Of a stretch of 46,859 bases of DNA, positions 1,024-44,443 are shown in pieces. This stretch comes from Anaerolineae bacterium (lineage in GTDB: Bacteria; Chloroflexota; Anaerolineae; Aggregatilineales; Aggregatilineaceae), in assembly GCA_018432315.1 (NCBI GenBank), contig JAHDLB010000014.1:1-46859 (forward strand), written 5' to 3'. The number at the start of each line of letters is the position of its first letter. Positions within the stretch are counted from its first letter, which is position 1. The notes beneath the pieces were generated by a model, which ran no database searches, was not told where the DNA came from, and was given only the letters and a program-made list of their open reading frames with translations. Position numbers and translations under genes: made by a program.

Positions 1024-1493
1024 CGCGTTATCTCCAATAAGCGGCGTTCGAACCCCTGTTTGATATCGTCCCGGAACTGATCGACATCTTCCAGATAGAT
1101 CGTATGGACGAACATCGTCTTTCGATCATCGGAAATGTCCAGGTACAGCGTGCCCGGCGTCAGCGTTATCAGGTTTGCCAGCAGCGAGATCTCGAGATCG
1201 CTCGTCGCCTCCAGCGGGATCGCGACCACCGCAGGCCGGATCCTCAGGCGTGGTGATAACACCATATACGCCACCCGCAGGTTTGCTAGCAGCAGTTCCC
1301 CCAGGATAAACAGGACAAACGTGATCACACGCGGAAACTTCGACCGGTAGCCCGCCGCGCGCCCGCTGCGCTGTGAGAGTCCCAGCGCCAGATACCCCAC
1401 GACGAACCCGAACAACAGGTTCACAGGCGTAAACGTGCCCGTCAGGGCAATCCAGGCAATCGCCAGCAGCACGTTCAACAGAAGTGTATTCAC
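1020..1493 (-). CDS. mrpE: Mrp Na+/H+ antiporter subunit E
   Basis: This 157-residue protein matches MrpE/MnhE. Two or three N-terminal helices lie at about residues 5-40 and 54-78, followed by a cytoplasmic domain with the family pattern [18 protein letters not shown] at about 104-121. MrpE is needed for full antiport activity but, in family knowledge, not for complex assembly. It overlaps mrpD upstream and mrpF downstream by four bases. The start GTG/ATG region is fixed by the coupling with mrpD. Confidence 0.94.
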
Positions 1494-3007
1494 GGCGTCC
1501 CTCCCAATACAGCCTGGATGTAACTCGCCGGATCGAGCAGTTGGCGCGCTGCATCACGCGCCAGCACGAAGAACGGCTCCGCCGCAATGCCCAGCACGAT
1601 GGTCAGTGCCCCCAGCGCGATAATCGGAGCCACCAACGCCAGCCACGCCCGGCTCGTCCGCAATTCAGGGAGCCCGTCAGACGCCGCCTCATCGCTCTCA
1701 GGACGGTCCTTCCAGAACGCTTCGGCCCAAATTTTCATCATCGAGAACAGGGTCAGAATGCTCACGCCGAGCGCCACCGCCACAATCGCGTACTCTTCGG
1801 TTTCCAGCCCGGCCCGGACCAGCGTCAGCTTGGCCCAAAACCCCGACAGCGGCGGAATGCCGGCCAGCGACAGCGCGGGAAACAGAAACATCATCGACAG
1901 CCCGACGTGCGACTTGTACAGCCCGCCCAGCTTTTTGAGATCGTAGGTCCCGGCGATCTGGTAGACCGCACCGCTCACCAGGAACAAGGCGGATTTGGCG
2001 ATGATCACGTGCACCATGAAGAACACGGTCCCCGCGAGCGCCAGCTCGGTGAACAGCCCCAACCCCATCAGCAGGTACCCGATCTGGCTGACAATGTGAA
2101 ACGAGAGCAGCCGCCGAAACCCCGTCTGGGCGACGGCGCCCAACACGCCCGTGACCATCGTAAACCCCGCGATGACCAGGATGAGCGTGTGCGTGTAATC
2201 CACATCGCGCAAGAAGATCAGCGTGAAGACGCGGATCAGCGAATAGACGCCCACCTTGGTCAACAGCCCGGAGAAGATGGCCGTTACGGCAACCGGCGGC
2301 GTGTGATAGGACGCGGGCAGCCAGAAGAACAGCGGAAACACTGCCGCCTTGATCCCGAAGGCGATCAGAAACATCATCGACAGTGCCGTGACCATCCCCG
2401 GATCGACGTCGCCCGAATTGAGCCGCTGCGCCAGGTCCGCCATGTTCAGCGTTCCGGCCACGCTGTACAGAATGCCGATCGCCGTCAGGAAGAGCGCGGA
2501 CGATACCAGGTTGATGGTGACATACTTGATCGCGCCTTCGAGTTGAACTCGTTCGCCGCCCAGGGCCATCAGCACGAAGGACGCGATCAACATCACTTCG
2601 AACCACACGTACAGGTTGAACATATCCCCAGTCAGGAACGCACCATTGACGCCCATCAACAGCACGTGAAACAGCGGGTAGTACCCGAACGATTCGCGCG
2701 GCGCATCCATGCTCGACAGCGAATAAACGGCCACCGCTAGCCCCATCAGGCCGGTCATCGTCACCATGATCGCGCTGAACAGGTCGGCCACCAGGGTGAT
2801 ACCGAACGGCGCCGGCCAATCGCCGATTTGAACGACAGCGATGCCGTCGCTTGACACGCTCGTCAACAGCCCGATCGCCGCCAGGAACAGAATCAAAGCG
2901 CCGGCAACGCTGATGCGGCGCTGAATCGCGCGGTGATTCCACGCCAGCACCAACGCGATGGCCGTCATCAGGGGGATGAGTATGGGCAGGATCAGCAGTC
3001 CGTTCAT
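1490..3007 (-). CDS. mrpD: Mrp Na+/H+ antiporter subunit D
   Basis: This 505-residue polytopic protein belongs to the proton-conducting subunit family shared with complex I NuoL/M/N. About 14 helices are visible. The conserved motif [12 protein letters not shown] (about 125-136) contains the key helix-5 Glu, and [19 protein letters not shown] (about 220-238) contains the helix-7 Lys. MrpD is one of the two ion-translocating subunits of the Mrp antiporter, so the visible residues suggest an active pump or antiporter. It follows mrpC by 23 bases. Length matches the family. Confidence 0.96.
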
Positions 3008-3030
3008 GGATTCCTCGTCAGTTCGTCCAT

Positions 3031-3381
3031 TCAGCTTTTCTCAGTGGCTCTGATGCTGTCCAGATCGTCAGTCCCCACGCTTTGATACGTGCGCTTGAAA
3101 AGCACCAATGCGAACGCCTGCACGCCAAACCCGATCACGATCGCCGTCAGAATCAGCGCTTGTGGCAGCGGATCGGCGAATGGCGCGGCGGGCTGCGCGG
3201 CATCTGCCGGAATCAGCGGAGAGGAGCCGCGAGTCAAACGGCCCACGGTGAAGATCAGCAGGTTAGACGCATACCCCAGCAGGGCCAGCCCCATGATCAC
3301 CTTCACCATGCTCCGGCGCATCATCATGAACAAGCCGGCAGCGTACAGCCCACCGATCACAAATGCCAGCACGACCTCCAT
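3031..3381 (-). CDS. mrpC: Mrp Na+/H+ antiporter subunit C
   Basis: This 116-residue protein is a NuoK-like subunit with three helices (about 2-20, 27-46 and 73-95). The family pattern [19 protein letters not shown] lies at about 31-49 and [20 protein letters not shown] at about 72-91. NuoK-like subunits carry buried acidic residues in the ion path. The gene sits 3 bases after mrpB and before mrpD, the canonical order. Confidence 0.95.
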
Positions 3382-3384
3382 ATA

Positions 3385-3792
3385 TCATTCCTCCGCCAGT
3401 GAAAAGATGATCGTCAGAGCGACGCCCATGACGGCCAGATAAACGCCGATATCGAACAACAGCGGCGTGCCCATCTTGCCCACAACGGGTATCTCGCGCG
3501 AATCCCAGGCGGTGGTCATGAACGGCTCGCCGAACAGCATCCCGATCAATCCACTTGTCACCGCGATCAACAGTCCCGCAGCGATCAACAGGCGCGGATT
3601 AAGCGGTAGGATAGCGCGCGCCCGCTCGACGTCGTGCGCCAGGGCAAACAAGGTGAACGCCGCCGACGCCACCAGCCCGCCCACGAACCCGCCGCCCGGC
3701 TCGTTGTGCCCGCGCAGCAGCGCAAAGATCGAAAAGAGCAGCAGCAGCGGCAGCAGATAGCGCGTCGCCGTCGACAAAATAACCGACTTCAT
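3385..3792 (-). CDS. mrpB: Mrp Na+/H+ antiporter subunit B
   Basis: This 135-residue membrane protein carries the MnhB domain. The segment [14 protein letters not shown] at about residues 29-42 is diagnostic, and about four helices are visible. It is a separate MrpB in addition to the MrpB-like C-terminal part of MrpA, as in other seven-subunit Mrp systems. It begins 19 bases after the M50 protease gene that separates it from mrpA. Confidence 0.94.
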
Positions 3793-3811
3793 CGATGCCC
3801 CTCCGTCACTC

Positions 3812-4933
3812 TCACAATCCCAGCTCGCTGCGCATCCGCACGTACCGGATCACCTGCTCGCGCGTCAGCATACCGACCAGCTCCTCGCCTACCACCACAG
3901 GAACCTGCCCCACTTGCGCCCGGTCCATGATGCGCAGCGCGTCGAGCAGTTCCGTGCTCGGCGTGACGCGTTGGATTTGGTCCCACGGCACCATGATCTG
4001 CTCAGCCGTCACCTGGTTCCACTCGTCGCGCGAGATGGCGGTCACGTCCTGGATCGTCAGCAGGCCGCGCGTGGCGTCGCCCTCATCTACGAAGAAGCAG
4101 CGCTGCGGACGCCCGCTCAAAATCTGTTCGTCGACCAGTTCTTTGATCGACAGCCGGTGCGGCACGTGCGCGCATTCGGTCGTCATCACCTGCGAAACCG
4201 TCACGCCGCGCAAGGCTTCCTGCAGGCCGGACTGCGCGGCGCTGGCCGTTGCTGCGTTTTGCAGAAACCAGCCGATGAAAATCAGCCACAGCCCGTTGAA
4301 AACCCCGCCGGCCAGCAGCGCGAAGGCGCCCCAGGCCATGAACCCGAACGCGACGACCTGTCCCATCGTCGCGGCGATGCGGGTGGCGCGGTGCAGGCTC
4401 CCGGTGAACTGCCACACCACGGCCCGGAAGACGCGCCCGCCATCCAGGGGAAAGCCGGGGATCATGTTGAACACGGCCAGGATCAGGTTGATTCGCGCCA
4501 GCCACACGCTTGGCGCGGCCAGATGCATCGACACGTTTCGGTCCGCCAGCCAGATCACGTAGAACACCGCGGCCAGCGCCAGGCTGACGATCGGCCCCGC
4601 GATAGCGATCCGGAACTCGGCCCCGGCGGTGCGCGGCTCCTCTTCGATCTGCGCCACGCCGCCGAAGATGAACAACGTGATCGAGCGCACGGGAATCTTG
4701 TTGCGCATGGCGACGAACGAGTGTCCCAGCTCGTGCGCCAGCACCGATCCGAAGAACAACAGGCTGGTGATCGCGCCCAATATCCAGTACGCCGCGCCGT
4801 TCATGTCGGGATACTCATCCGGAAAATAACCGACCGCCAGCGAAAAGGTCACCAGGCCGAAGATGAAAAACCAGCTCGGATGCAGCCCGATGGGAATGCC
4901 CCATATATGGCCAAGCTTCACGCGCGACTCCAT
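3812..4933 (-). CDS. M50 site-2 protease with CBS domains, inside the Mrp operon
   Basis: This 373-residue protein is an intramembrane zinc metalloprotease of the M50 (SpoIVFB/Rip3-like) class. The zinc motif HELGH is at residues 67-71 in a hydrophobic helix, and the third ligand motif PGFPLDGGR places Asp at about 162. About six helices span residues 15-235. A C-terminal pair of CBS domains (about 245-370) usually binds adenine nucleotides and could gate the protease. It lies between mrpA and mrpB with 37- and 19-base gaps, so it is probably co-transcribed with the antiporter. The substrate is unknown; a membrane-bound anti-sigma factor or an Mrp subunit are both possible. The catalytic motifs are intact. 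Confidence 0.9.
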
Positions 4934-4970
4934 CTCTCACCTCTCCTCCCCAAACCTGACATCATGCAGG

Positions 4971-7280
4971 TCAGGACTCCTCATCACCCGCCTGCCCCAG
5001 GCGCAGCTTCATCAGCGCGTAGACGCCGATCGCCGCCACCGACAGCACGGTGATTTCGCCCAACGTGTCAAACGCACGAAAATCCACCAGAATGACGTTG
5101 ACGATGTTCCGGCCCTTCCCCAGCGGCAGGCTGTTTTCTGCGAAATACGGAGTCAAGCGCGACCGCAGGGGTTCCGCCGTCACGATCAACACCAGGGTTG
5201 TCATCATGGCGCCCGCCAACAGCGCCACAACGGCATCGCGCACGCGATCCCGCCGGCTGGTCAATGTGGCGTACTTCGGCAGGCGGTAAATGACGAACAC
5301 GAACAGCAGTACGGTTAGCGTCTCGATGGCAAACTGGGTCATCGCCAGGTCTGGCGCGCTGAACAGCACGTACAGCAGCGCGATCCCATAGCCCACAGTG
5401 CCCAGCGCCGCGACAGACGCCATCCGCGACCGCATCAGGGTCACGCCTAGCGCGCCCGCCAGGATCATGCCCGCCACCAGGATTTCATAGATGCGCACAT
5501 CCGGCGTCCGCCACATCCCGCCTGCGTCGACCCGGCTCGCCAGCGTGAAGCCGACCAGCCCAACCGTCACGACGACGATTGTCGTCAGGTAGAGCCGCAA
5601 GTAGCCGCTTTGCAGCACGCTCGTCACCGCCGTGGCAAAGCGCGGAAGCCCATCGACGGCCTCCTGGTAAATGCGCGCCGGGCCGAACCGCGATCCGGGA
5701 TCGAGGATGTTCAGCCGGTTGCCCAGCCGCTCCCGCCACACGTACGCGGCCACGCCCAACCCGACGGTGATCACGCTCAGCACCAGCATCGGGTTGATGC
5801 CGTGCCACAGCGCCAGCTTGACGGTTGTCTCTTTCTGCAGAACGGCGCTCGCTGCCGGCGCGATCAAGTCGTGCGACACCACCCCCGGGGCCAGACCGAC
5901 GAACAGGCCCAGTCCGGCCAGCAGCACCGGCCCCAGCCACAGGCCGACGGGACCTTCGTGCGGGTGTTTGGGCGTTTCGACCCACTCGCCCCAGAACGGT
6001 TTGATCGCCACCAGCCCGGCTGCCGCGACCACGAACACGTTCCCGGCCACCGCCACCGCCGTGATCAAAGCGGGCCAGACGGCATCTTCGAGCGTCGCTT
6101 CGTACAACACCTCTTTGCTGATGAAGCCCACCAGCGGCGGCAGACCGGCCATCGACAGCGCCGCCAGGCTCGCCGCCAGCATAGAGACCGGCATCGAGCG
6201 CGCCAGCCCGCCCATCGCCGTGATGTCCCGCGTGCCGGTTTCGTGATCGAGTCCCCCGGCCATCAGGAACAGCGATCCCTTGTACATGGCGTGAGCCAGC
6301 AGCAGGACCGCCGCACCTTTCACGGCGATGCTGCTTCCAATGCCCAACAGCAGCACCAGCGTGCCGAGCGTGCTCACCGTGGAATAGGCCAGAATGCGCT
6401 TCAGGTCGGTCTGCTTCCACGCCAGAAACCCGCCCAGAAACATGGTGACCGCGCCTGCGCTCGTGACCAGGGCCGTCCATTCGTCCGTGCCACCCAGGGC
6501 CGGGCTCAGACGCGCCAGCAAGAAGACCCCCGCCTTGACCATCGTGGCGGAATGCAGGTACGCGCTGACGGGAGCCGGTGCTTCCATTGCACCGGGGAGC
6601 CAGAAATGGAACGGAAACTGCGCCGACTTGGTGAACGCGCCAGCCAGGATCAACAGCAGCGCCGGGAGATACAGGTGATGCGCCTGAATCGCCTCGGCCT
6701 CGCCGAATAGCGCGGAGATCTCCCAACTGCCACTGATAAGGCCCAGCAGCAGCAGCCCGGCCAACAGGGCCAGCCCGCCGCCGCCGGTCACCAGCAGCGC
6801 CTGGAGCGCCGCCGCCCGCGACGCCGCTTTGTCGAATTTGTAGCCGATCAACAGGTACGAGCTGATGCTGGTCAGCTCCCAGAACACGAACAGCGCGATC
6901 AGGTTGTCGGCGATCACAACGCCCAGCATGGACGCCATGAAGATCAGGACGATGGCGTAGAACCGTCCCAACCAGGGATCGCCCGCCAGATAACTGCCCG
7001 CGTAGACGATCACCAGCGTCCCGATCCCCGTGACGATCAACGCAAACAACAGGCTCAGGCCGTCGAAATAGAACGTAAGGTTATAGCCGAGGCTGGGAAA
7101 CCACTCGTAAGACGCGACGATGACCTCGCCGCCGGCCACCCGCCCCACCAGGCTCAAAAAATACGCGAAAAGGCCCGCCGGCAGCAGCGCGATGATCCAT
7201 CCGGACCACCGGCGCACGACGCGGTGAACGGCTGGCGCGGCGAGCGAGAGCGCATATCCGGACATAATAGCGGTTACCAT
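4971..7280 (-). CDS. mrpA: Mrp Na+/H+ antiporter subunit A
   Basis: This protein of about 769 residues is MrpA, the large NuoL-like subunit. The first ~500 residues form the 14-helix proton-conducting module, with [14 protein letters not shown] (helix-5 Glu, about residue 132) and [27 protein letters not shown]-type helix-7/8 residues. The C-terminal part (about 580-769) holds the domain typical of MrpA, with [12 protein letters not shown] and [17 protein letters not shown]-like sequence (here [17 protein letters not shown]). I chose ATG 7280 because GAGGGAT lies just upstream; an in-frame extension to 7337 lacks family similarity. First gene of the operon. Confidence 0.95.
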
Positions 7281-7421
7281 AGGCAATCCCTCAGTCCACA
7301 GGTGTGCCATTCGGGTGGCACTGCATCCGGAAGGCACGGGCCTCCACGTTTGCGGACAGCTATTCGGTACAACGTGTGATCGGTGAGTTATTCTGCTGCG
7401 AGGCTCTTACAGCCTAAAAGA

Positions 7422-7493: not shown

Positions 7494-7994
7494 TCATTCG
7501 CCGCGCAGCACGCGCAGCGCCAGCGAGGCAGCGCCGGGGATCGCCTGCTCGACGGAGGGCGTGCATTCCTCGGAGAAAGTCCACACATCCTGGACTTCGA
7601 CCGCGACGATCGAAATGGCATCGTCAGGTGGCAGTTCCGCCCCAAAGCGCCGCAGCGCGCGCAGCGCCGTGACGAGGTTGGTGTCGTGCGCGGACGCTAT
7701 GTTGAGCGTGCCCGGCAGGTCGGCCAGCGCCAGGTGCGAAACGGTCCCCGGCGGGTCGTTGCCGGTCATGATCGCGTCGATCACGATCGCCCGCCGAAAG
7801 CCCACCAGCATCTCCGCGAGCGACAGCCCCCCCACGCACGCTTCGCGGACCACCACGCGGCGCTCGTCCCCCGCCTCGCGCACAGCGACCCGCACAAGCT
7901 GGACGACGCGCCACCCCACGCCGTCATCGGACAGGATCGGATTCCCCAGTCCAATGATGATCGTGGGATACGGCGCGTCGTCCATAAGGTTCAC
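7494..7994 (-). CDS. [NiFe] hydrogenase maturation protease (HycI/HoxW/FrhD-type)
   Basis: This 166-residue protein belongs to the M52 family that removes the C-terminal peptide of the [NiFe] large subunit after nickel insertion. The N-terminal motif GLGNPILSDDGVG (about residues 15-27) contains the acidic residue that in HycI/HybD binds the nickel, and a second conserved Asp lies in IVIDAIMTGNDPPG (about 80-93). The substrate is surely the adjacent large subunit, which keeps a cleavable tail. GTG 7994 directly follows the mvhA stop; ATG 7985, three codons on, is an alternative start. It is the last gene of the operon. No hyp maturation genes are in the window. Confidence 0.9.
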   Translation of the reverse strand: MNLMDDAPYPTIIIGLGNPILSDDGVGWRVVQLVRVAVREAGDERRVVVREACVGGLSLAEMLVGFRRAIVIDAIMTGNDPPGTVSHLALADLPGTLNIASAHDTNLVTALRALRRFGAELPPDDAISIVAVEVQDVWTFSEECTPSVEQAIPGAASLALRVLRGE

Positions 7995-9488
7995 TCAGCG
8001 ATCGAACTGCTCGAGCAGTTCGGGCGGCACATACTGGCTGGCGTGATGGGTCACCGCGCCGCGGCTGTCCCGCACAACAAGCTCCAGCGGCATCTGCCCC
8101 GGCAGCGAGTGCGTCGCGCACGACAGGCACGGATCGTAGGACCGGAACGCCATCTCGATCATGTTCAGGATGCCGTCGTTCACGTTGCCATTCTGGATCA
8201 ACGCCTCGGCAGCCTTGCGAATGCTGATGTAGATCGGGGCGTTGTTGTTCGTCGTGCCCACGATCAGGTTGACCTCGGTCAGGATGCCATCCGGATCGGT
8301 CTTGAAGTGATGGGTCAGCGTGCCGCGCGGCGCCTCGACGATGCCGATGCCCTCGGTCGGGGTTGCCGTCGGGATCGCGCGCACGACCGGATCGGCCACT
8401 TCCGGATCCTCGGCCAGTTGCAGCATCCGTTCCGCCGCGTATTGCAGCTCGATCACGCGCGCCCAGTGAGCGGCCAGCGTGTGATGGACCGGCTTGCCGC
8501 CGAGCGTCTCGTACATCCGCTCGTACTCGGCCTGGGCCAGCGGAGTCGCCATGCCGTCCGCCGCGTTCAGCCGCGAGAGCGGCGTCGCGCAGTAGATTCC
8601 GCTGTCCTTACCGTCGACGAATCCCTTCCAGCCCACGTTCTTCAGGTACGGGAACTTGAGATAGCTCCACGGCTCGACGTGCTCGGCAATGTGCTCCGTG
8701 TATTCGCCCGGCGCGTATTTGCAGAATTCGTGCCCATCCGGATCGACCACCCGCACCTTGCCATCGTAGAAATTGACGTGGTTGTTCTCGTCGACCAGGC
8801 CCATGTAGTAGGTCTTCTGCGTGTAGCCGGGGCTGGTGATCAGATCGACATAGTCAGTGTTCGCCAGCACGACGTCGTGAAACAACTGGATCGTGAACTG
8901 GCCGAACTCAACGTTCTGGCGAGCGATCTCGATGATCTGCTGGCGCTGCTCCTCGGTAATCGGCTGGCTCATCCCGCCCGGCAACGCCGCGACCGGGTGA
9001 ATGGTCCGCCCACCGATCATCTCGATCACCTGGTGGTTGCGCTTGCGGGTGGCGATCACCTGCCCGCCGATTTCAAGCCCCACCTTGGCGATCACGCCCA
9101 GGATGTTCCGTTCCGCGGGCGGGGCGCCCGGCCCCACGACGAAGTCCGGCCCACCCAGCGCGTAGAAGTGCGTGGTGTGATCGGTGACGTAAAACGCCAT
9201 GTAGAACATCTCGCGCAGCTTCTTGCCCGCCAGCGGCGGTTCGACGCGATACAGGTCGTCGAGCGCCTTGGCCGCGGCCATGTGGTGTGCTTCCGGACAC
9301 ACGCCGCAGATCCGGCTGGTGAGGCGCGGCATCTCTTCGGCGGGCCGCCCCACGCAGAACACCTCGAACCCGCGCAGTTCCGGCACTTGAAAGTAGCAGT
9401 TATCGACGTTACCTTGCTGGTCCAGGAAGATTTCGATCTTTCCATGTCCCTCAAGTCGCGTGATCGGATCGATGGAAATGCGTGTCAT
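7995..9488 (-). CDS. mvhA: [NiFe] hydrogenase large subunit, MvhA-like
   Basis: This 497-residue protein is the catalytic subunit of a cytoplasmic group 3 (3c-like) [NiFe] hydrogenase. The N-terminal pair RICGVCPEAH places Cys at 61 and 64; the C-terminal pair DPCLSCATH places Cys at 454 and 457. These four Cys ligate the Ni-Fe centre. A 37-residue tail after His460 marks the protease cleavage site, so the subunit is made as a precursor. ATG 9488 is preceded by GGGAGGT; an upstream in-frame extension overlaps mvhG and is not family-like. The reaction is H2 = 2H+ + 2e-, with electrons passed to the small subunit and then MvhD/HdrA. Confidence 0.95.
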   Translation of the reverse strand: MTRISIDPITRLEGHGKIEIFLDQQGNVDNCYFQVPELRGFEVFCVGRPAEEMPRLTSRICGVCPEAHHMAAAKALDDLYRVEPPLAGKKLREMFYMAFYVTDHTTHFYALGGPDFVVGPGAPPAERNILGVIAKVGLEIGGQVIATRKRNHQVIEMIGGRTIHPVAALPGGMSQPITEEQRQQIIEIARQNVEFGQFTIQLFHDVVLANTDYVDLITSPGYTQKTYYMGLVDENNHVNFYDGKVRVVDPDGHEFCKYAPGEYTEHIAEHVEPWSYLKFPYLKNVGWKGFVDGKDSGIYCATPLSRLNAADGMATPLAQAEYERMYETLGGKPVHHTLAAHWARVIELQYAAERMLQLAEDPEVADPVVRAIPTATPTEGIGIVEAPRGTLTHHFKTDPDGILTEVNLIVGTTNNNAPIYISIRKAAEALIQNGNVNDGILNMIEMAFRSYDPCLSCATHSLPGQMPLELVVRDSRGAVTHHASQYVPPELLEQFDR

Positions 9489-9502
9489 CGGTACCTCCCT
9501 GG

Positions 9503-10513
9503 TTAGGCCGGCTCGCCGGCGGCTTCGCTGGCGGGTGCGACGATCTTCTCGCCGTTGGCCCTGGCGCGGCGGCGCAGCAGCGAGTCGGGCAGATGGAATC
9601 GGTAGAAGTAGCCCGCCGGATCGGGCAGCGTATCCAGGATGGCATCGACCTCCTCCGGCGTCTGGGCATCGAGCACGGATGCGATCCCGGTCAGAATCTT
9701 CGCGCCGTGATCCACCACGCCCTCGTTCGGCCCGTAACACCCGCGGCAGCCCATACCGACCTGTGGACAGCGCGCCCCACAGCCCGATCGCGTCGCGATC
9801 CCCGCGCAGAACAGCCCCTGCTCCAGCAGGCACGTGTCCGGATCAGGGATGATCTCGTACGGGCGATAGAAGCGCTTGATCTTCTTCTCGTGTTTTTCCC
9901 GCGGACACTCATCACACACCGTGACGTCCGGCCCGATCACCGACCCCGGCGGCGGAAGCTGCCCTGTCAGAATGGCGTTGACCGCCATCTCGATCGAGGA
10001 CGCTTCCGGGGGACAGCCGGGCAGGAAGTAGTCCACGGGGACCACCTGCGCCAGCGTCTTGACCGTGTGCCAGAAACCGGGCAGTTCGAGATCTCCCTCC
10101 GGCACATCGGTATGTTTCATGGGTACAATCCCATCCGGGTTGTCCGTGGTCGGCGACTTGTGGTAAATCCAGTCGAACATGGCGTCGCGATCGGTGAAGT
10201 TCGCCAGCCCTGGCATTGATCCGCCAGACGCGCACGAGCCAAACGCGACCATCACCTTCGACTTCCGCCGCAGCAGGTGCGCCAGCCGGGCGTTTTCGTC
10301 GTTGCGGATCGCCCCGTTGAACAGGCACACGTCGATCGAGTCGTCGTCCATCGCTTCGACATCGGCGTACTTGAAGTCCATCACGCACGGCCAGAAAACG
10401 ATGTCGAACGCTTCCGCCACGTTCAAGATTTTTTCGTGCAGGCCCAGCACGGCGATCTCGCAGCCGCCGCACGACGAGGCCCAATACAACGCTAACTTCG
10501 GTTTCTCACTCAT
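9503..10513 (-). CDS. mvhG: [NiFe] hydrogenase small subunit, MvhG-like
   Basis: This 336-residue protein is the electron-transferring small subunit. The proximal cluster motif SSCGGCE gives Cys15 and Cys18, GSCASGG and PGCPPE supply the remaining ligands, and a Cys-rich C-terminal half (CDECP, CLLEQGLFCAG, CGARCPQVGMGCRGC) can bind two further [4Fe-4S] clusters. There is no twin-arginine signal, so it is cytoplasmic, as expected for group 3c. It overlaps mvhD by four bases and precedes mvhA by 14 bases. Its tail after about residue 290 is slightly longer than in methanogen MvhG. Confidence 0.94.
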   Translation of the reverse strand: MSEKPKLALYWASSCGGCEIAVLGLHEKILNVAEAFDIVFWPCVMDFKYADVEAMDDDSIDVCLFNGAIRNDENARLAHLLRRKSKVMVAFGSCASGGSMPGLANFTDRDAMFDWIYHKSPTTDNPDGIVPMKHTDVPEGDLELPGFWHTVKTLAQVVPVDYFLPGCPPEASSIEMAVNAILTGQLPPPGSVIGPDVTVCDECPREKHEKKIKRFYRPYEIIPDPDTCLLEQGLFCAGIATRSGCGARCPQVGMGCRGCYGPNEGVVDHGAKILTGIASVLDAQTPEEVDAILDTLPDPAGYFYRFHLPDSLLRRRARANGEKIVAPASEAAGEPA

Positions 10514-10974
10514 GAATTGGCCTCCTGTAACGCATAGGGGTCTTCATTCGGCCAGTTGTGAGGCCAGTCGAGTGGGCCCAGCGCCTTGATCTCTTCGGTC
10601 ACACGCGCGACCGTCTGCGCGAACCGCACACCCTCGGCAGCCGACGCCCAGTGAAGCTGGACGCGGGCATCGTCGATGCCCATCTGGCGCAGCGTCCGGC
10701 GCAGCAGCACAAACCGCCGGATGGCCTTGTAGTTGCCCTCCTGATAGTGGCACTGGCCGGGATGGCAGCCCATGATCAGGACAGCGTCGGCGCCTTTTTG
10801 CAGGGCGCGCAGCACGAAGGTCGGGTCGAGCCGCCCGGTGCACATGATGCGAATATCCCGCAGCGTCGCCGGATACCCCATCCGCGAAGTGCCCGCCAGG
10901 TCAGCCGCGCGATACGAGCACCAGTTGCACAAGAAGCCCACGATCACGGGCTCAAACGTTCCATTATCGCTCAT
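10510..10974 (-). CDS. mvhD: MvhD-like hydrogenase/heterodisulfide reductase linker, [2Fe-2S]
   Basis: This 154-residue protein matches MvhD. Five Cys are conserved: Cys16 and Cys19 in FLCNWCSY, Cys45 in IMCTGRLDP, and Cys70 and Cys75 in GCHPGQCHY. In methanogens MvhD binds one [2Fe-2S] cluster and passes electrons from the hydrogenase small subunit to HdrA. Its place between hdrA and mvhG therefore says the two enzymes form one complex. It overlaps mvhG by four bases and follows hdrA by 20 bases. An acidic, tryptophan-containing C-terminus (WPHNWPNEDP) is visible. Confidence 0.93.
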   Translation of the reverse strand: MSDNGTFEPVIVGFLCNWCSYRAADLAGTSRMGYPATLRDIRIMCTGRLDPTFVLRALQKGADAVLIMGCHPGQCHYQEGNYKAIRRFVLLRRTLRQMGIDDARVQLHWASAAEGVRFAQTVARVTEEIKALGPLDWPHNWPNEDPYALQEANS

Positions 10975-10994
10975 CGCATATCTCCTGACCTAGC

Positions 10995-13010
10995 CTATAT
11001 CACTTCCGTTACCAGAGGCATCTCGCCCGTCACGTCGACCAGGATTCCATCGATTTCGGCCATCAGTTGGTCGAACGTGAAGTGCGCGCCGGTGATCACC
11101 TGGCTCGGGCAGGCTGCCACGCAGGTACCGCAGCCTTTACACAGAGCCGGGTTCACGCGCGACACGCCTTCGGCCTCGATGAAATCGATCGCGTTGTAGG
11201 GGCACATGTTGTTGCAGATACGGCAGCCAGAGCAGCGGCTCTCGTCGATGCTGGCGCGCACGGGCTCTAGCGCCACCTCGCGCCGCGAGATCGTGCCCAG
11301 CACGCGGGCTGCTGCCGCCGCGCCCTGTGCCACCGAGTCCGGGATGTCTTTGGCGCCCTGGCAGGCCCCGGCGATGAACACGCCTTCCGTCGCCGTTGCC
11401 ACCGGGTCGAGCTTGGGATGGCGCTCGGTGAAGAAACCCGTATCGCCGCAGCCCACGCCGAACATATAGCCCACTGCCTGCGAGTCGGCGCGAGGCTCCA
11501 GCCCAGCGGCCAGGATCACCATATCCACCGGTACGCGGCGCTGCTTGCCGATCAACGTGTCCTCGGCCACGACGATGAGCTTCCCCTCTTCATCGGGCGC
11601 ATGGGCCGCGTCCGTGATCTCGGACACCTTGCCACGAATGAACGTGGTACCCTCGCTCAGGATGCGATGGTAGAACTCCTCGTAGCCTTTGGAGATGGGC
11701 CGCATGTCGATGTAGAAGTTGTAGACTTGCGCCCCGGTCTTTTCCATGACCAGGTGCGCAAACTTCAGCGACGACATGCAGCAGATCGCCGAACAGTGCT
11801 CGTTATAGTTCTTGTCGCGACTGCCCACGCAGTGGATGATCGCCACCGACTCGGGCACGGTTTCGCCGTCGCGCAGCACGACCTTGCCTTCGGTGGGACC
11901 CGCCGCGTTGGTCAGCCGCTCGAACTCCAGGCTGGAAAAGACGTTCTCCAGCCGCCCATATCCGTAGTTCGGAATGCGCCGGCAGTCGAACAGCTTGTAC
12001 CCGGTCGCCAGGATCACGTTGCCCACTTCGAGATCGACATACTGATCTTCCATATCGAACCGGATGGCCTCCGTCGGGCAGACCTTTTCGCACATCCGGC
12101 ACTTGCCGGTCTTGAAGTAGGTGCAGTTCTCGACGTCAATCACCGGATACTTGGGCACCGCCTGCGGGAAAGGCCGGTAGATCGCTTTGCGATAGCCCAT
12201 GCCCGCCTCGAAGACGTCGTCCACGACCTTGATCGGGCACTTATCCCAGCACGAGCCGCAGCCGGTGCACAGGTCTTCGTCGACCATGCGCGCCCGCTTG
12301 CGCACCCGCACGGTGAAGTTGCCCACGTAGCCATCGACTTTTTCGACTTCGCTGTAGGTCAGCAGGGTGATATTCGGGTGCGCCCCGGCATCGAACATCT
12401 TGGGCGTCAAGATGCATGCCGAGCAGTCCAACGTGGGGAACGTCTTGTCGAACATCGCCATGTGGCCGCCAATGCTCGGCTCGCGCTCCACGAGGTAGAC
12501 GTGGTAGCCCGCATCGGCGATCTCCAGCGCGGCTTGAATGCCCGCGATCCCCCCGCCCACGACCAGCGTTTCGGGCCGGATCTTCACCTGCATCGGCTCC
12601 AACGGCTCGTGGTGAATCACGCGGTGAACCGCCGCGCTGACCAGCGCCTTGGCTTTGTTCGTCGCGCCGTCGCGGTCGTTCGGATGCACCCAGGACGCGT
12701 GCTCGCGGATGTTCGCCATCTCGAACAGGTACGGGTTCATCCCCGCGCGGGCGCACGCGTTTCGGAAGGTTTTCTCGTGCATGTGCGGCGAGCACGACGC
12801 CACCACTACGTGCGTCAGGCCGAACTCCTTGATGTCTTCTTCGATCTGCTCCTGCCCGGTGCTCGCGCACATGAACTTGTTGTCACGCGAAATCACCACG
12901 TTCGGCAGGTGCTGCGACCATTCGGCGACGTGCTCCACGTCCACCGTGCCGGCGATGTTGTGCCCACAGTGGCAAACATATACGCCTACTCGTTTCTCCT
13001 GTTCGCTCAT
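10995..13010 (-). CDS. hdrA: Heterodisulfide reductase-like subunit A (FAD, Fe-S)
   Basis: This 671-residue iron-sulfur flavoprotein matches full-length HdrA. The FAD-binding GGGIAG lies at residues 152-157. Four Cys-rich cluster motifs are visible: CTGCGSCWDKC at 248-258, Cys296/304/307/311, CSGCRICNNMC at 593-603 and CKGCGTCVAAC at 624-634. An N-terminal domain has VCHCGHNIAG at 12-21. In methanogens the HdrA FAD bifurcates electrons from H2 to ferredoxin and to HdrBC. It is not fused to any other subunit. AGGAGGT before ATG 13010 overlaps the hdrB stop. Confidence 0.95.
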   Translation of the reverse strand: MSEQEKRVGVYVCHCGHNIAGTVDVEHVAEWSQHLPNVVISRDNKFMCASTGQEQIEEDIKEFGLTHVVVASCSPHMHEKTFRNACARAGMNPYLFEMANIREHASWVHPNDRDGATNKAKALVSAAVHRVIHHEPLEPMQVKIRPETLVVGGGIAGIQAALEIADAGYHVYLVEREPSIGGHMAMFDKTFPTLDCSACILTPKMFDAGAHPNITLLTYSEVEKVDGYVGNFTVRVRKRARMVDEDLCTGCGSCWDKCPIKVVDDVFEAGMGYRKAIYRPFPQAVPKYPVIDVENCTYFKTGKCRMCEKVCPTEAIRFDMEDQYVDLEVGNVILATGYKLFDCRRIPNYGYGRLENVFSSLEFERLTNAAGPTEGKVVLRDGETVPESVAIIHCVGSRDKNYNEHCSAICCMSSLKFAHLVMEKTGAQVYNFYIDMRPISKGYEEFYHRILSEGTTFIRGKVSEITDAAHAPDEEGKLIVVAEDTLIGKQRRVPVDMVILAAGLEPRADSQAVGYMFGVGCGDTGFFTERHPKLDPVATATEGVFIAGACQGAKDIPDSVAQGAAAAARVLGTISRREVALEPVRASIDESRCSGCRICNNMCPYNAIDFIEAEGVSRVNPALCKGCGTCVAACPSQVITGAHFTFDQLMAEIDGILVDVTGEMPLVTEVI

Positions 13011-13019
13011 GTGGACCTC

Positions 13020-13973
13020 CTATTCCGGCATGGCCGGCATCGGTAGCGCTTGCTTGGAGCGCCGCTCGGGTTTGGCCTTGGGCGGCGGCACGTCCTGAAT
13101 CTTGGCCGGCACGCCCGACGCGTCGACGAACTCCTGGCCGAAGCCCAGTTCTTTGGGAGTCAGCCCCAGCGCCAGGCCAATCACCTGAGTGAAATACAAG
13201 ACAGGCATATCGTAACTGGTATCGAACAACCGGTTGGCGTATCCCTGGTAGACGTCCAGATTGAGCTGGCACATCGGGCAGATCGTGACCAGCGCATCCG
13301 CGCCGCTGTCCGCCGCGCTTTTGATGATCTTGTGGATCATCTCGAGCGCCGTCGTTTCGCTGATCTGCGTCATGTGTCCACCGCAGCAGAACGTCTTCAG
13401 GCGGAACGCCGTCGGCTCCGCGCCCAGCGCGGTGAACATCTCGTCCATCGCCATTGGTTGCTCGGTGCTGTCGAATACCGCGTCGGGCCGCGCCACCAGG
13501 CAGCCATAATAGGCCGCCAGCTTGAGCCCGTACAGCGGGCGCCGCGTCCGCTCTTTGAGCGTGTCGAGCCCAAAGTCGGTCAGTACGGCTTCCAGCAGAT
13601 GCCGCACGTGCACCGTCCCCGGCTCGTAATGCAGGTTTCCGGCGGACAGCGCCTTGTTGACCTTCTTGCCGAGCGCCGGGTAAAGGCCCATATTCTTGTC
13701 GGTTTTGTGCAGGTTCAGATAGCACGCGCTGCACGGCACCACCAGTTGATCCGCCCCGGCATCCGCCGCCCGCGCCAGGTTGCGCGCCACCAGCGAGTAC
13801 GCCGGCAGACGGTTTACCGAGAAATACTCGGTCGCGCCGCAGCAGTTCCAGTCGTCCATCTCGACCAGCTCGAAGCCCAGCGCGCTGGCGATGGCCTGCG
13901 TGGATACCTCGTAGGCGTGGCTGCGATGCGAGAGAGAACATCCGGGGTAGTATGGATAGCGTCGCTCGTTCAT
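13020..13973 (-). CDS. hdrB: Heterodisulfide reductase-like subunit B (two CCG domains)
   Basis: This 317-residue protein has two complete CCG domains. The first has Cys12, Cys44-Cys45 and Cys81/Cys84 (C-X31-CC-X35-CXXC). The second has Cys158, Cys196-Cys197 and Cys232/Cys235. In HdrB these bind two non-cubane [4Fe-4S] clusters that cleave a disulfide such as CoM-S-S-CoB. All ligands are present, so the subunit looks catalytically competent. The true substrate in this non-methanogen is unknown. The last ~25 residues form a Pro/Lys/Arg-rich tail not needed for the fold. The start overlaps the hdrC stop by four bases. Confidence 0.95.
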   Translation of the reverse strand: MNERRYPYYPGCSLSHRSHAYEVSTQAIASALGFELVEMDDWNCCGATEYFSVNRLPAYSLVARNLARAADAGADQLVVPCSACYLNLHKTDKNMGLYPALGKKVNKALSAGNLHYEPGTVHVRHLLEAVLTDFGLDTLKERTRRPLYGLKLAAYYGCLVARPDAVFDSTEQPMAMDEMFTALGAEPTAFRLKTFCCGGHMTQISETTALEMIHKIIKSAADSGADALVTICPMCQLNLDVYQGYANRLFDTSYDMPVLYFTQVIGLALGLTPKELGFGQEFVDASGVPAKIQDVPPPKAKPERRSKQALPMPAMPE

Positions 13974-14539
13974 ACCCTTCTCTCCTCTGCCGCAATGGTT
14001 TTGGCCTCAGCCAGGATGGCCTGCAATTGGTCGAGCTGGCGGATCGACTTGGGACGCAGTGGCAGCCGGTTGCGTCGCAGCATGTTCATGCCCATCATGC
14101 CCAGCTTGACCATCTGCTGAGGGTGGTGGAACAGGTGATAGCGCGTTGCCAGGCCGGCCTCAAAACTTCGCCCGCGCTGCTCGACAAACCCGATGAATGT
14201 CTCGGAGAATTTGGCAGCCCCAGGGTGCTCGTAGCGTCCGGACTGGATCGCCATTTCTTTGAGCGTATACATGATGTCAGTGATCGGGATTTGTTGTGGA
14301 CATCTCGTCGTACAGGCGTAGCACGAGACACAAAACCAGGGCGTGTTGCTGCTGAGAACCTCGTCTTCAAGCCCGGCGCTGATCATCGCGAACAACGCGC
14401 GCGGGGTGTGGTCCATGTCGGCCCCGGACGGGCACGAGCCACCACACGAACCGCACTGAAGACATTGGCTGAGCAGCTCCCCACCCGGGGTTGCCTCCAC
14501 AACCCGTTGGAAAAAGGTGGAATTGCCTGCTGCTTTCAA
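13970..14539 (-). CDS. hdrC: Heterodisulfide reductase-like subunit C (two [4Fe-4S])
   Basis: This 189-residue protein carries two classic ferredoxin motifs, Cys26/29/32/36 (CLQCGSCGGSC) and Cys70/73/76/80 (CVSCYACTTRC). HdrC wires HdrA to HdrB. The start is a TTG at 14537-14539, chosen because a strong AGGAGGT lies nine bases upstream and no ATG or GTG gives the usual ~25 residues before the first cluster. It is the first gene of the seven-gene operon. The C-terminal third is helical and basic, without membrane segments, so the complex is probably soluble. Confidence 0.93.
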   Translation of the reverse strand: MKAAGNSTFFQRVVEATPGGELLSQCLQCGSCGGSCPSGADMDHTPRALFAMISAGLEDEVLSSNTPWFCVSCYACTTRCPQQIPITDIMYTLKEMAIQSGRYEHPGAAKFSETFIGFVEQRGRSFEAGLATRYHLFHHPQQMVKLGMMGMNMLRRNRLPLRPKSIRQLDQLQAILAEAKTIAAEERRV

Positions 14540-14881: not shown

Positions 14882-15562
14882 TCATGACACGTTCCGAAAG
14901 TCGATCAGGCCGTGCATGACGCTGTACACCGCGACCTGTAATCGATTCTCGAGGTTTAGTTTCTGGTAGATGCTGCACAGGTGGTTGCGAACGGTGTGCT
15001 CCGATATTTTCAGCACGCTCCCAATCCGCTTGTTCGTCATGCCGCGCGCCACCAGCACCAGCACTTCCGACTCGCGCGGGGTCAGGTTGGGATGCGACTC
15101 AGCGCGCAAACACAGCGTGCACCGGCTGTCGCTCAGCCGCTGCATCAACGCGGCCACCGTGGTCAGCGATATGGCGGCCTCGCCCTCGAACAGCCCGCGC
15201 AGCCGCGCGAACAGCTGATCGGGCGTGATGTTCTTCTGGAGATATCCGTCCGCGCCCGACAGCACACAGCTCAACACATCGTCAGCCTCGATGTGGGACG
15301 CCATCAACACAACCTGGATGCCCGGGTACTGGCGTTTGATCATGCCCGTCAGGGCGGGAATTTCGCAGCCGGTTAGCTCGTTATCGAGCAGCACGACATC
15401 GGGCCGTACGCGTTTGAGCAGTTCGACCGTCTCGAGATAGTCGCCTGCCTCCCCCACCACCTCGATCCCGGTCTGGGCCTCCAACAGACGCGCGATGCCG
15501 CTTCGAAACAATACGTTCGGATCTGCCAGAATCACCTGGATGACATCAAGTGAACCGTCCAT
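14882..15562 (-). CDS. NarL/LuxR-type response regulator
   Basis: This 226-residue protein has an N-terminal receiver domain (about 8-122) with the phospho-accepting Asp60 in VVLLDNELTG and Lys110 in GYLQKNI. Only one residue of the usual acidic pair is seen (Asp13 in ILADPN). A LuxR-type helix-turn-helix lies at about 160-210 (LTPRESEVL, ISEHTVRNHL). The linker has a CXXC (Cys148, Cys151), and four other Cys occur at 66, 99, 196 and in the receiver surface region, which is unusual. No partner histidine kinase is adjacent. Its position upstream of hdrC, same strand, makes the hdr-mvh operon a candidate target. Confidence 0.9.
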   Translation of the reverse strand: MDGSLDVIQVILADPNVLFRSGIARLLEAQTGIEVVGEAGDYLETVELLKRVRPDVVLLDNELTGCEIPALTGMIKRQYPGIQVVLMASHIEADDVLSCVLSGADGYLQKNITPDQLFARLRGLFEGEAAISLTTVAALMQRLSDSRCTLCLRAESHPNLTPRESEVLVLVARGMTNKRIGSVLKISEHTVRNHLCSIYQKLNLENRLQVAVYSVMHGLIDFRNVS

Positions 15563-42502: not shown

Positions 42503-44443
42503 CTATTTCCGCAGCCGGGGAAAATCCGGCTCGCCCTCGAAGATCAGCACGTGCCCGTTGCCCAGCTTGGCCTCGACCCCCACCGACCCGCGCCCCAGGT
42601 GCGCCACGTCCGTCCCCCACAGCGGGGCCATGTCGCACTCGCACACCGGGAAATAGGCGGTCCCCTCCTCGACGGTGCCCATGCTTGAACTGGCGATCAG
42701 CGCCACCGTCTGGCCGTCGTTCTGCCGCGCGAACACCACGAAATGCGGGTTGTCCGCGTAGCCCACGAACATCGTCGCGGGATCGGGATTCGCCAGCAGG
42801 TCAGCGTATTTCCGGCGCAGCGCCAGCGCATAGCGCACCGATTCGACCAGGTTGTCGGGCCGGGTCCAGTTGTACGCCCACTCGCTGAACAGAGGCAGCG
42901 TCTCGGCAGGATTCGCCTGGATCATCTCGTCGGTGAAGCCCAGCCCGGTATTGACCGGCTTGGTCTCCATCAGTTCGAACCCGCTGTAGATCACCGGGAC
43001 GCCCGGCACCATCACGCTCAGCGCCAGCGTGTAATGCGAGTACGCCAGCGGGTACGCGCGGCTGGCCGCCCGCGGCGTGTTGTGGCTCTCCGCGGTGGCG
43101 AAGAACGGCAGTGGCAGCCGCTCGTGCGCCAGGCGGGTCACAAACTCGCGCAGCTTGTCGCCGATGTGAAAGTCGAAGACCATGTACCCCAGAACGGCGT
43201 TGTATCCCTCGTCGACGCTCTTCTGCTCGATCAGGAAATTCTCGTCCCAGAAGGCGAAGTCGGGGTTGATGGACCGCGCCGCTTCGACCACCCGCCGCTT
43301 CAGCGGCATGGGCAGCGCGTGGCCCATATCCATCATCACCCCGTCGATTCCGAAATCGTTCTGGTAGTGCGGGATGACGCCCACGATCGCATCCCACAAA
43401 TCACTCACCGCGTTTTCGGGCTGGGCCAGCCGTTCGTCGTACATGCGCAGCGTGTTGTACGCCATGTAGTTGAAGTCGGGATGATCGTACATCCTGAGAT
43501 ACGTCACATCAGTCCAGGGAGGCTGGTTGTCGTCCGGGGGCCAGTCGGTGAACGCGCCCGGAATTCGCACGCGCGTCCCGTCGTCCAACTGCCCCACCCA
43601 CCGGCCATGCTCCATCCACACCTGGTCGGGGCGCGGCGGGGGCGCGAACATCCCCCGGTGTGCTTCCGGCGGCGCGGGCAGATCGGTGAAATCGCCGCTC
43701 TCCACCTGCCCCTTGATGAGGCCGATCTCGTCCGGCGTGAAGACCGGGCTGCCGTAGGCGTGCGGGTCGGCGCTGCCCGGCTCGCGATCGGGCACGTCGT
43801 CACGGATCCAGTAGAACCAGTTCGGATGCTCGCCGATCCAATCGCCGTCCTTCGACGAGGTGCGCAGCACGAACTCCATCACCACGCGCATCCCCAGGCG
43901 GTGAGCTGCTTCCACGAACCCGGCGAACAGCGCATCCACATCCAGCCCCAGCGCCGGCTCGGCCAGGTTGGCGTCGAGCTTGTACGGGTTGCGGATGCCG
44001 TACGGTGAGCCGAGCGTGCCCTTCTTGCCATCCTGCCCCACCGAGGTAATCGGCAGCAGGTAGACCGTGTTGAAGCCCATGTACTGGACATACGGCAGCA
44101 GGGCGATGCTCTTGAGCAGCGAGCCGGTGTCGCGCCAGCCGTCCGCCGAGGGCTCGATCGACAGGAGCCCGTCGTGCGCGTGATCGTAGGCTGTGGTCGC
44201 GCGCGGGAACAGGTTGTAGACGATCGCGTGCCGCGTCCACTCACCGCCGCCGCTGCCCTGCACCAGCGGCTGAGGCTCTGCCGCCAGGATCGACTCGAGC
44301 TTGGCCGCGTAGAAATCGTAGGGATTGACCGCCTGGGGGTCAGTCTGCTGGTGGTCGATCCACAAACCGGGGACGTGATACGCGTGGCTCACGTCCCGGC
44401 GTTGGCTATGCAATACGGAAACGATGCGTTCAAGCGCCGACAT
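42503..44443 (-). CDS. GH13 alpha-amylase family protein, GlgE-like, altered catalytic residues
   Basis: This 646-residue protein is related to the GH13 family, most like GlgE maltosyltransferase: EHPNWF (205-210), Asp372 in MDMGHALP as the likely nucleophile, Glu401 in FWDENF as likely acid/base, SHNTPR at 453-458 and YSGFELMETKP later. The invariant Arg two residues before the nucleophile is Met, and the Asp after NTP in GlgE is Arg458. It therefore may have a different substrate or no catalysis. No signal peptide is seen, so it is cytoplasmic. Other glycogen genes are not nearby. It converges on adk; AGGAG lies upstream of ATG. Confidence 0.8.
   Translation of the reverse strand: MSALERIVSVLHSQRRDVSHAYHVPGLWIDHQQTDPQAVNPYDFYAAKLESILAAEPQPLVQGSGGGEWTRHAIVYNLFPRATTAYDHAHDGLLSIEPSADGWRDTGSLLKSIALLPYVQYMGFNTVYLLPITSVGQDGKKGTLGSPYGIRNPYKLDANLAEPALGLDVDALFAGFVEAAHRLGMRVVMEFVLRTSSKDGDWIGEHPNWFYWIRDDVPDREPGSADPHAYGSPVFTPDEIGLIKGQVESGDFTDLPAPPEAHRGMFAPPPRPDQVWMEHGRWVGQLDDGTRVRIPGAFTDWPPDDNQPPWTDVTYLRMYDHPDFNYMAYNTLRMYDERLAQPENAVSDLWDAIVGVIPHYQNDFGIDGVMMDMGHALPMPLKRRVVEAARSINPDFAFWDENFLIEQKSVDEGYNAVLGYMVFDFHIGDKLREFVTRLAHERLPLPFFATAESHNTPRAASRAYPLAYSHYTLALSVMVPGVPVIYSGFELMETKPVNTGLGFTDEMIQANPAETLPLFSEWAYNWTRPDNLVESVRYALALRRKYADLLANPDPATMFVGYADNPHFVVFARQNDGQTVALIASSSMGTVEEGTAYFPVCECDMAPLWGTDVAHLGRGSVGVEAKLGNGHVLIFEGEPDFPRLRK

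Follow-up and report, generated by a model that had tools for sequence, protein, structure and literature searches.

The closest described relatives of the system studied here are the HdrABC-MvhADG complex of Methanothermococcus thermolithotrophicus (5ODC) and the related complexes 8RVU, 9SW2 and 9SFI. Mvh and Hdr genes have already been published for Chloroflexota, as the available parts of two reports show (PMC3971608, PMC11650866), and the accessible text of another calls the role of the group 3c [NiFe]-hydrogenases of uncultured bacteria unresolved (PMC6472368). We analysed a 46,859-nucleotide stretch of an Anaerolineae bacterium (contig JAHDLB010000014.1, hereafter the window), in which seven contiguous genes, all on the minus strand from 14539 to 7494, follow each other in the order hdrC, hdrB, hdrA, mvhD, mvhG, mvhA and a maturation protease gene. 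Judged by its genes, this operon is an HdrABC-MvhADG set with a group 3c [NiFe] hydrogenase and all six structural genes, sharing with the 5ODC-type complexes the six subunits and the cluster and Ni ligands; the complex itself is not new for the group. We consider it likely that its product is a bifurcating complex that oxidises H2 and reduces ferredoxin. Its second acceptor would be something other than the coenzyme M-coenzyme B heterodisulfide (CoM-S-S-CoB), and a docking peptide at the end of HdrB may bring it in.

Families were assigned from Pfam and NCBIfam profiles and structural matches from PDB sequence searches. The top PDB match of each structural subunit was a chain from a methanogen Hdr/Mvh-type complex: 5odc_A for HdrA (E=2.1e-212), 5odc_F for MvhA (E=1.1e-117), 5odc_E for MvhG (E=2.4e-72), 7bkb_F for MvhD (E=1.9e-44), a chain matched at E=2.9e-21 for HdrC, and for HdrB the group 9sfi_C, 8rvu_b and 5odc_B, with a best E of 1.8e-43. 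These family and PDB matches, together with the contiguous and co-directional layout, bear out the proposal of a sequence-only reading that the locus is a complete seven-gene operon including the protease. For MvhA the most likely start is the ATG at 9488, which follows a ribosome-type site (GGGAGG), rather than the open reading frame (ORF) start at 9833. The same gene order was found again in other genomes, so the arrangement is not due to chance. The presence of all seven subunits in the compared operons was established by tblastn, the genes at these loci being picked by a simple ORF/GC-frame rule that missed some of them (for example mvhD in L078).

We also aligned the ligands of 31 operons (the window, 29 from Chloroflexota and one from Thermoplasmata). 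Results showed that 8 cysteines of HdrC, 10 of HdrB, 5 of MvhD and 4 of MvhA were kept in 31/31 operons, as were 22 cysteines of HdrA (C196, C199, C248-258, C296-311, C394-411 and C593-634) and 11 of MvhG. The earlier claim that all cluster and Ni ligands are intact holds; the few exceptions across the operons concern the N-terminal cysteines of HdrA (C13, C15, C48 and C73 kept in 30/31, C86 in 24/31) and C18 of MvhG (30/31). The MvhA motifs given in the part of PMC6085437 available, ICGxCxxxH (L1) and AYDPCxxCATH (L2), read ICGVCPEAH and SYDPCLSCATH in the window, thus matching save for a Ser in place of the first Ala of L2, with the ligands kept.

HdrB had been described as keeping both CCG domains, which is correct; as a simple retained methanogen subunit it does not stand, considering that its active-site loops are different and that it carries a C-terminal motif. 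The two loops read CCGATE and CCGGHMTQ in the window, compared to CCPAPG and CCGAGGGVR in the methanogen PDB chains, and the protein ends with a basic, Pro-rich linker followed by ALPMPAMPE (residues 309-317), in which LPMP begins at residue 310. We compared loops and tail in 61 HdrB rows, leaving out L015, L019, a paralogue on contig C30 of the host genome and duplicate stretches. An LP[ML]P tail was present in 47 of the 61, and all 47 had CCGA[TV]E at the first CCG and CCGGHMxQ at the second, while neither was found in any of the 14 tail-less rows; the nearest of these (L021) has CCGAAE at the first motif. The C30 paralogue reads CCGSSA and CCGAAHSLT and has no tail and no GHM loop. One further genome (G080; L072 and L073) carries two HdrB operons on separate contigs, one 80%-identical and the other 56-57%-identical, which are either true paralogues or a binning error.

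The codons of LP[ML]P are varied, Leu being encoded by five and each Pro by four (46 rows picked as tail-bearing, a number that is no frequency), suggesting conservation at the level of the protein and not of the RNA. In many rows the final Glu codons of the tail coincide with the likely hdrA ribosome site; an RNA-only artefact was nonetheless rejected, since LP[ML]P lies upstream of these Glu codons and its codons are varied. In a tree of 48 HdrB rows from which the tails had been removed first, a branch with support 99/98 separates the tail rows from all others, in a topology where 16 of 45 inner branches are open and some branches are long. The predicted model of HdrB (mean pLDDT, the per-residue confidence, 85.6) superposes on methanogen HdrB chains with a TM score (query) of 0.82-0.85. 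Its tail has block means of 57 (301-310) and 50 (311-317), and this low model confidence indicates that the tail is probably flexible. The only other LPMP among the ORFs picked in the fetched stretches of the host genome was internal, in the window protein at 42503-44443. The loop and tail signature seems unreported, as no paper combining LPMP with heterodisulfide was found in the literature searched, which left most subscription journals outside.

The host genome spans 5.69 Mb in 66 contigs, at 99.4% completeness and 3.3% contamination, and gives the metabolic context. The closest named relatives of its HdrB are in eight Chloroflexota metagenome-assembled genomes (MAGs), at 71-80% identity, named Anaerolineae, Anaerolineales, Ardenticatenia and Thermoflexus, plus one as Chloroflexi only. 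On this context the sequence-only reading needs amending, since it is not empty. A carbon monoxide dehydrogenase/acetyl-CoA synthase (CODH/ACS, Wood-Ljungdahl) cluster encodes CooS, AcsB (CdhC/acsB), delta and gamma subunits and a methyltransferase-type protein. The suggested check for metF and acsB thus found both kinds of gene, with three methylenetetrahydrofolate reductase (MTHFR, PF02219) matches on C30, C51 and C63 and none on the window contig (C66); C51 encodes a MetV-MetF fusion. A second Hdr cluster on C30, at about 103.3-115.2 kb, comprises HdrA, MvhD, a GltD-like/HdrA protein, MetV, MetF and an HdrCB fusion. As for hydrogenase maturation, hypA, hypB, hypC, hypD and hypF are present; hypE was not found in the fetched stretches of the host genome with a HypE-type query picked by eye from L090, no genome-wide hypE search being made. 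Further hydrogenase-type loci are one 3b-like and one group 4-like complex. The absence of methanogenesis genes, noted earlier for the window, extends to the genome in that no MCR_alpha (PF02249) match was found (2 methanogens of 14 controls match; genes for CoM and CoB synthesis were not searched for), and there was no DsrC (PF04358) match either (of the 14 controls, E. coli matches).

Two observations on this genome stand apart. A PLP-type enzyme of the D-cysteine desulfhydrase family lies near hypD (L036:10760-11854, C3), below the cut-offs for cysteate sulfo-lyase and for the CoM-synthesis enzyme XcbE. In addition, haem-copper oxidase subunits I and II (COX1/COX2) are encoded at L121:6422-9193 (C9), alongside CODH/ACS and a group 3c hydrogenase. 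Mvh is found in obligate anaerobes according to the portion of PMC6085437 available; the accessible part of PMC7117926 nonetheless describes a Chloroflexi MAG from Lost City that combines Hdr and Wood-Ljungdahl genes with a cytochrome c oxidase, so the mixture is not unprecedented.

The idea that such an operon would be unusual for its group has to be abandoned, in view of the published Chloroflexota genes and of its distribution: MvhA of this type (at least 55% identity) occurs in at least 95 of 298 genomes of the class, counting carriers hand-picked among the matches listed down to about E=7e-114, so that carriers in fragments may be missed. An acsB match was present in 122/298 class genomes, and among the MvhA matches listed in 65/95 carriers versus 57/203 others. 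When only better genomes were kept (by rounded completeness and contamination), the figures were 40/60 and 30/130, both comparisons ignoring kinship. Among 20 stretches around selected HdrB matches, 16 hold Hdr and Mvh genes together, three are cut by contig ends (L072, L075, L082) and one (L086) has hdrCBA with no adjoining mvh. Genes of hyp type lie near the operon in L080, L081 and L090, the last recognised by eye. The HdrB group also reaches beyond the class, with 31/301 phylum genomes matching at 1e-70 and the tail seen in five of the seven non-class HdrB loci read.

Taken together, the operon would encode a cytoplasmic HdrABC-MvhADG complex, and homology makes a bifurcating H2:ferredoxin function the natural reading, as had been suggested; bifurcation and direction are both taken over from characterised methanogen complexes. 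MvhAG would split H2, MvhD would hand the electrons to the flavin of HdrA, and this flavin would bifurcate them, one to ferredoxin and the other via HdrC to HdrB. Reduced ferredoxin could feed the encoded CODH/ACS in this organism. We agree that the second acceptor is the gap here, and we propose from the conserved motif that the HdrB tail may dock a protein that carries or presents it.

Several points weigh against this reading. The NCBIfam cut-offs for methanogen HdrB, HdrC and VhuA are all unreached: HdrB scores 191.3 bits against the CoB-CoM HdrB equivalog TIGR03288 (cut-off 345.15), thus falling outside that family, and slightly better, 196.1 bits, against SdhE, the anchor of 8-methylmenaquinol:fumarate reductase (cut-off 500), and HdrC scores 87.8 bits against TIGR03290 (cut-off 160). 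Tail and loops seem to have arisen in a single evolutionary event, so the 47 cases in which they occur together are not independent, and model confidence is low around the first CCG loop (mean pLDDT 57 for block 41-50). The docking role is proposed from conservation, no partner having been found, and packing of the tail against another subunit is an alternative. Finally, 30 of the 95 MvhA carriers have no acsB match, or 20 of 60 in the better genomes, and across the class the complex does not depend on the CODH/ACS pathway.

Could the substrate of HdrB simply be a persulfide or the low-molecular-weight disulfide of a bacterial thiol, the tail being structural? All 10 HdrB cysteines are kept and the modelled fold matches methanogen HdrB, as this would predict. 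However, the loops beside both CC pairs are unlike those of the methanogen chains, and the conservation of a motif borne on a linker that is itself variable and poorly predicted is more suggestive of a binding peptide; we therefore regard this alternative as tentative and somewhat doubtful. The complex could also run in reverse in vivo, producing H2 from reduced ferredoxin and a dithiol during fermentation. The available part of PMC11650866 places Dehalococcoidia mvh/hdr under H2 production, and elsewhere as H2-using, and the 3b-like and group 4-like loci are further hydrogenase-type loci in the genome that would fit. The sequence leaves the direction unfixed; the enrichment of the Wood-Ljungdahl pathway would rather favour ferredoxin supply, and reversal appears unlikely.

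We also asked whether methylene-tetrahydrofolate (methylene-THF) is the acceptor, with MetVF docking on this HdrBC to form an H2-driven bifurcating methylene-THF reductase. The pathway and a MetV-MetF fusion are encoded in the genome, acsB is enriched in MvhA carriers, the operon adjoins acsB and a cooS-like gene in a genome of the same order as the host (G127, L077), and in Sporomusa ovata MetVF is linked via MvhD and HdrCBA, as far as the accessible part of PMC9430772 goes. On the other hand, C30 already provides the host with an HdrA-MvhD-MetVF-HdrCB cluster, the window operon contains no metV or metF, and the listed carriers that lack an acsB match do not fit. A Wood-Ljungdahl-only acceptor was rejected on the latter ground and because tail presence does not track acsB: the tail occurs without an acsB match in G213, G194 and G199, and acsB without the tail in G061 and G179. 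Methylene-THF is thus a possible acceptor but not a general one, and as the explanation of this operon it seems quite improbable.

The trisulfide of DsrC has been proposed as an HdrABC-linked acceptor in sulfate reducers. This or the CoM-S-S-CoB of methanogens would agree with the overall homology to methanogen complexes, but as the genome has no McrA (MCR_alpha) and no DsrC match both are disfavoured, and we give them very little credence.

We looked at how the subunits co-vary among 30 rows from Chloroflexota, of which 6 lack the tail, in pairs that are not independent of each other. Distances correlate in blocks, HdrB-HdrC (r=0.92), HdrA-MvhD (0.86), MvhG-MvhA (0.94) and MvhA-protease (0.87), while HdrB or HdrC against the remaining structural subunits reaches 0.58-0.68 and HdrA against MvhG and MvhA 0.78-0.80. 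HdrB and HdrC thus evolve somewhat apart from HdrA-Mvh, although the genes form one conserved operon and not separate, non-interacting paralogues, the outcome that would have undone the sequence-only reading. No HdrB of this type was found to adjoin HdrA-Mvh genes in ten stretches from other families (L100-L109), where other proteins take the place of a separate HdrB. Family f41 has an AFOR (AOR-type) protein and a ferredoxin, and its MvhD is fused to ferredoxin domains. In f11 there is an HdrC-CCG fusion of 401 aa and in f36 a NuoF-like protein, while one genome of f28 combines an HdrC-CCG fusion with an ETF-domain protein and a CCG protein of 679 aa. Pfam served to check the module names in L100, L101, L104, L107 and L109, at one or two loci for each family; those in L102, L103, L105, L106 and L108 follow from layout and the start of the sequence.

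We tentatively speculate, rating it below even chances, that a separate kind of HdrB arose once in Chloroflexota, in which remodelled active-site loops go with a tethered LP[ML]P that would recruit a dedicated partner and so provide a protein-borne acceptor for H2-driven bifurcation. The HdrA-MvhDGA core would then be a plug-in engine, the HdrB slot of which is swapped for AOR-type, NuoF-type or Etf/membrane CCG modules across the class. Module exchange at this position would show how bifurcating complexes gain new acceptors. Moreover, group 3c hydrogenases are common in Chloroflexota, so the acceptor gap affects models of hydrogen and carbon cycling, and a diagnostic HdrB signature with a short conserved tail makes the acceptor question searchable.

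Table 1. Positions of the operon genes, the HdrB tail and the related features in the window and on C30
Feature	Position	Strand	Description
hdrC	13970..14539	-	189 aa; two [4Fe-4S] clusters (8 Cys); Fer4 dicluster assignment, Fer4_8 E=1.9e-9
hdrB	13020..13973	-	317 aa; two CCG domains; 10 Cys of two expected noncubane clusters; PF02754 E=2e-28, two stretches
HdrB residues 286-317	13023..13118	-	variable basic/Pro-rich linker, then ALPMPAMPE (309-317, 13023-13049)
hdrA	10995..13010	-	671 aa; FAD-type and ferredoxin domains; HdrA/HdrA2 assignment; NF040770 829.7 bits, below cut-off (1100); MvhD not fused
mvhD	10510..10974	-	154 aa; [2Fe-2S]-type subunit; FlpD, PF02662 E=7.9e-51
mvhG	9503..10513	-	336 aa; small hydrogenase subunit; Oxidored_q6, PF01058 E=2e-21
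mvhA	7995..9488	-	497 aa; [NiFe] large subunit; NiFeSe_Hases PF00374; RICGVC and DPCLSCATH ligand motifs
Hydrogenase maturation protease, HycI-type	7494..7994	-	166 aa; PF01750 E=2.4e-9; TIGR00072 above cut-off
NarL/LuxR-type response regulator, upstream of hdrC	14882..15562	-	PF00072 and PF00196
Second, MetVF-linked Hdr cluster	L033:13326-18500 and L025:1-10245 (G000:C30)		

The flanking genes were also examined. The NarL-type response regulator lies upstream of hdrC in 8/8 of the closest Chloroflexota loci (one a contig-edge fragment). In 25 other stretches no such gene was found within 2.5 kb, three of these stretches offering less than 1.2 kb of upstream sequence. The regulator is not quite a marker confined to the window subclade, because a 34%-identical one stands just upstream of hdrC in L054 (G004), which is tail-bearing and lies outside this subclade. 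In many related operons a small cNMP-binding protein follows the protease (L074:10923-11387, L076, L077, L084, L085 and others), the gene of L074 having a cNMP_binding domain. With the regulator in the window subclade and this protein in many others, control of the complex may differ from one branch to another. A tie between the tail and the cNMP-binding gene was rejected, since L095 has the gene without the tail and the window has the tail with MrpA after the protease; in L014 no cNMP-binding match was found in the sequence available beyond the protease.

Directly downstream of the protease, on the same strand, Mrp-type antiporter genes occupy 1490-7337 of the window, interrupted by an M50 peptidase/CBS gene at 3812-4933, and small ORFs at 377-1493 may extend the set. 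Their membership of the system was not supported, MrpA not being found in 14 compared loci, most of which end near or before the protease; among those from Chloroflexota only L014 has about 3.5 kb beyond it.

Compared to the 5ODC-type methanogen complexes, the window complex thus has other HdrB CCG loops, a C-terminal tail and a single operon including the protease, in a genome with no McrA match. It belongs to the same 3c group as the hydrogenases of PMC6472368, the available text of which does not mention the HdrB loops or tail. In the same phylum, the sulfur-type hdrABC of Thermomicrobium roseum is HdrABC-like and occurs with etfAB, tusA and lbpA, not with Mvh, in the portion of PMC6776052 available. 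The C30 cluster resembles the hdrABC-mvhD-metVF cluster of the marine Chloroflexi DscP3 (accessible part of PMC5736913), HdrCB being fused in both. With the MetVF clusters of DscP3 and S. ovata, as far as these are described there, the window operon shares the HdrA-MvhD core but has MvhAG and no MetVF, and the HdrBCA-MvhD-FdhBA of DscP3, in the same part of that source, follows the same core idea with a formate dehydrogenase where the window has MvhAG.

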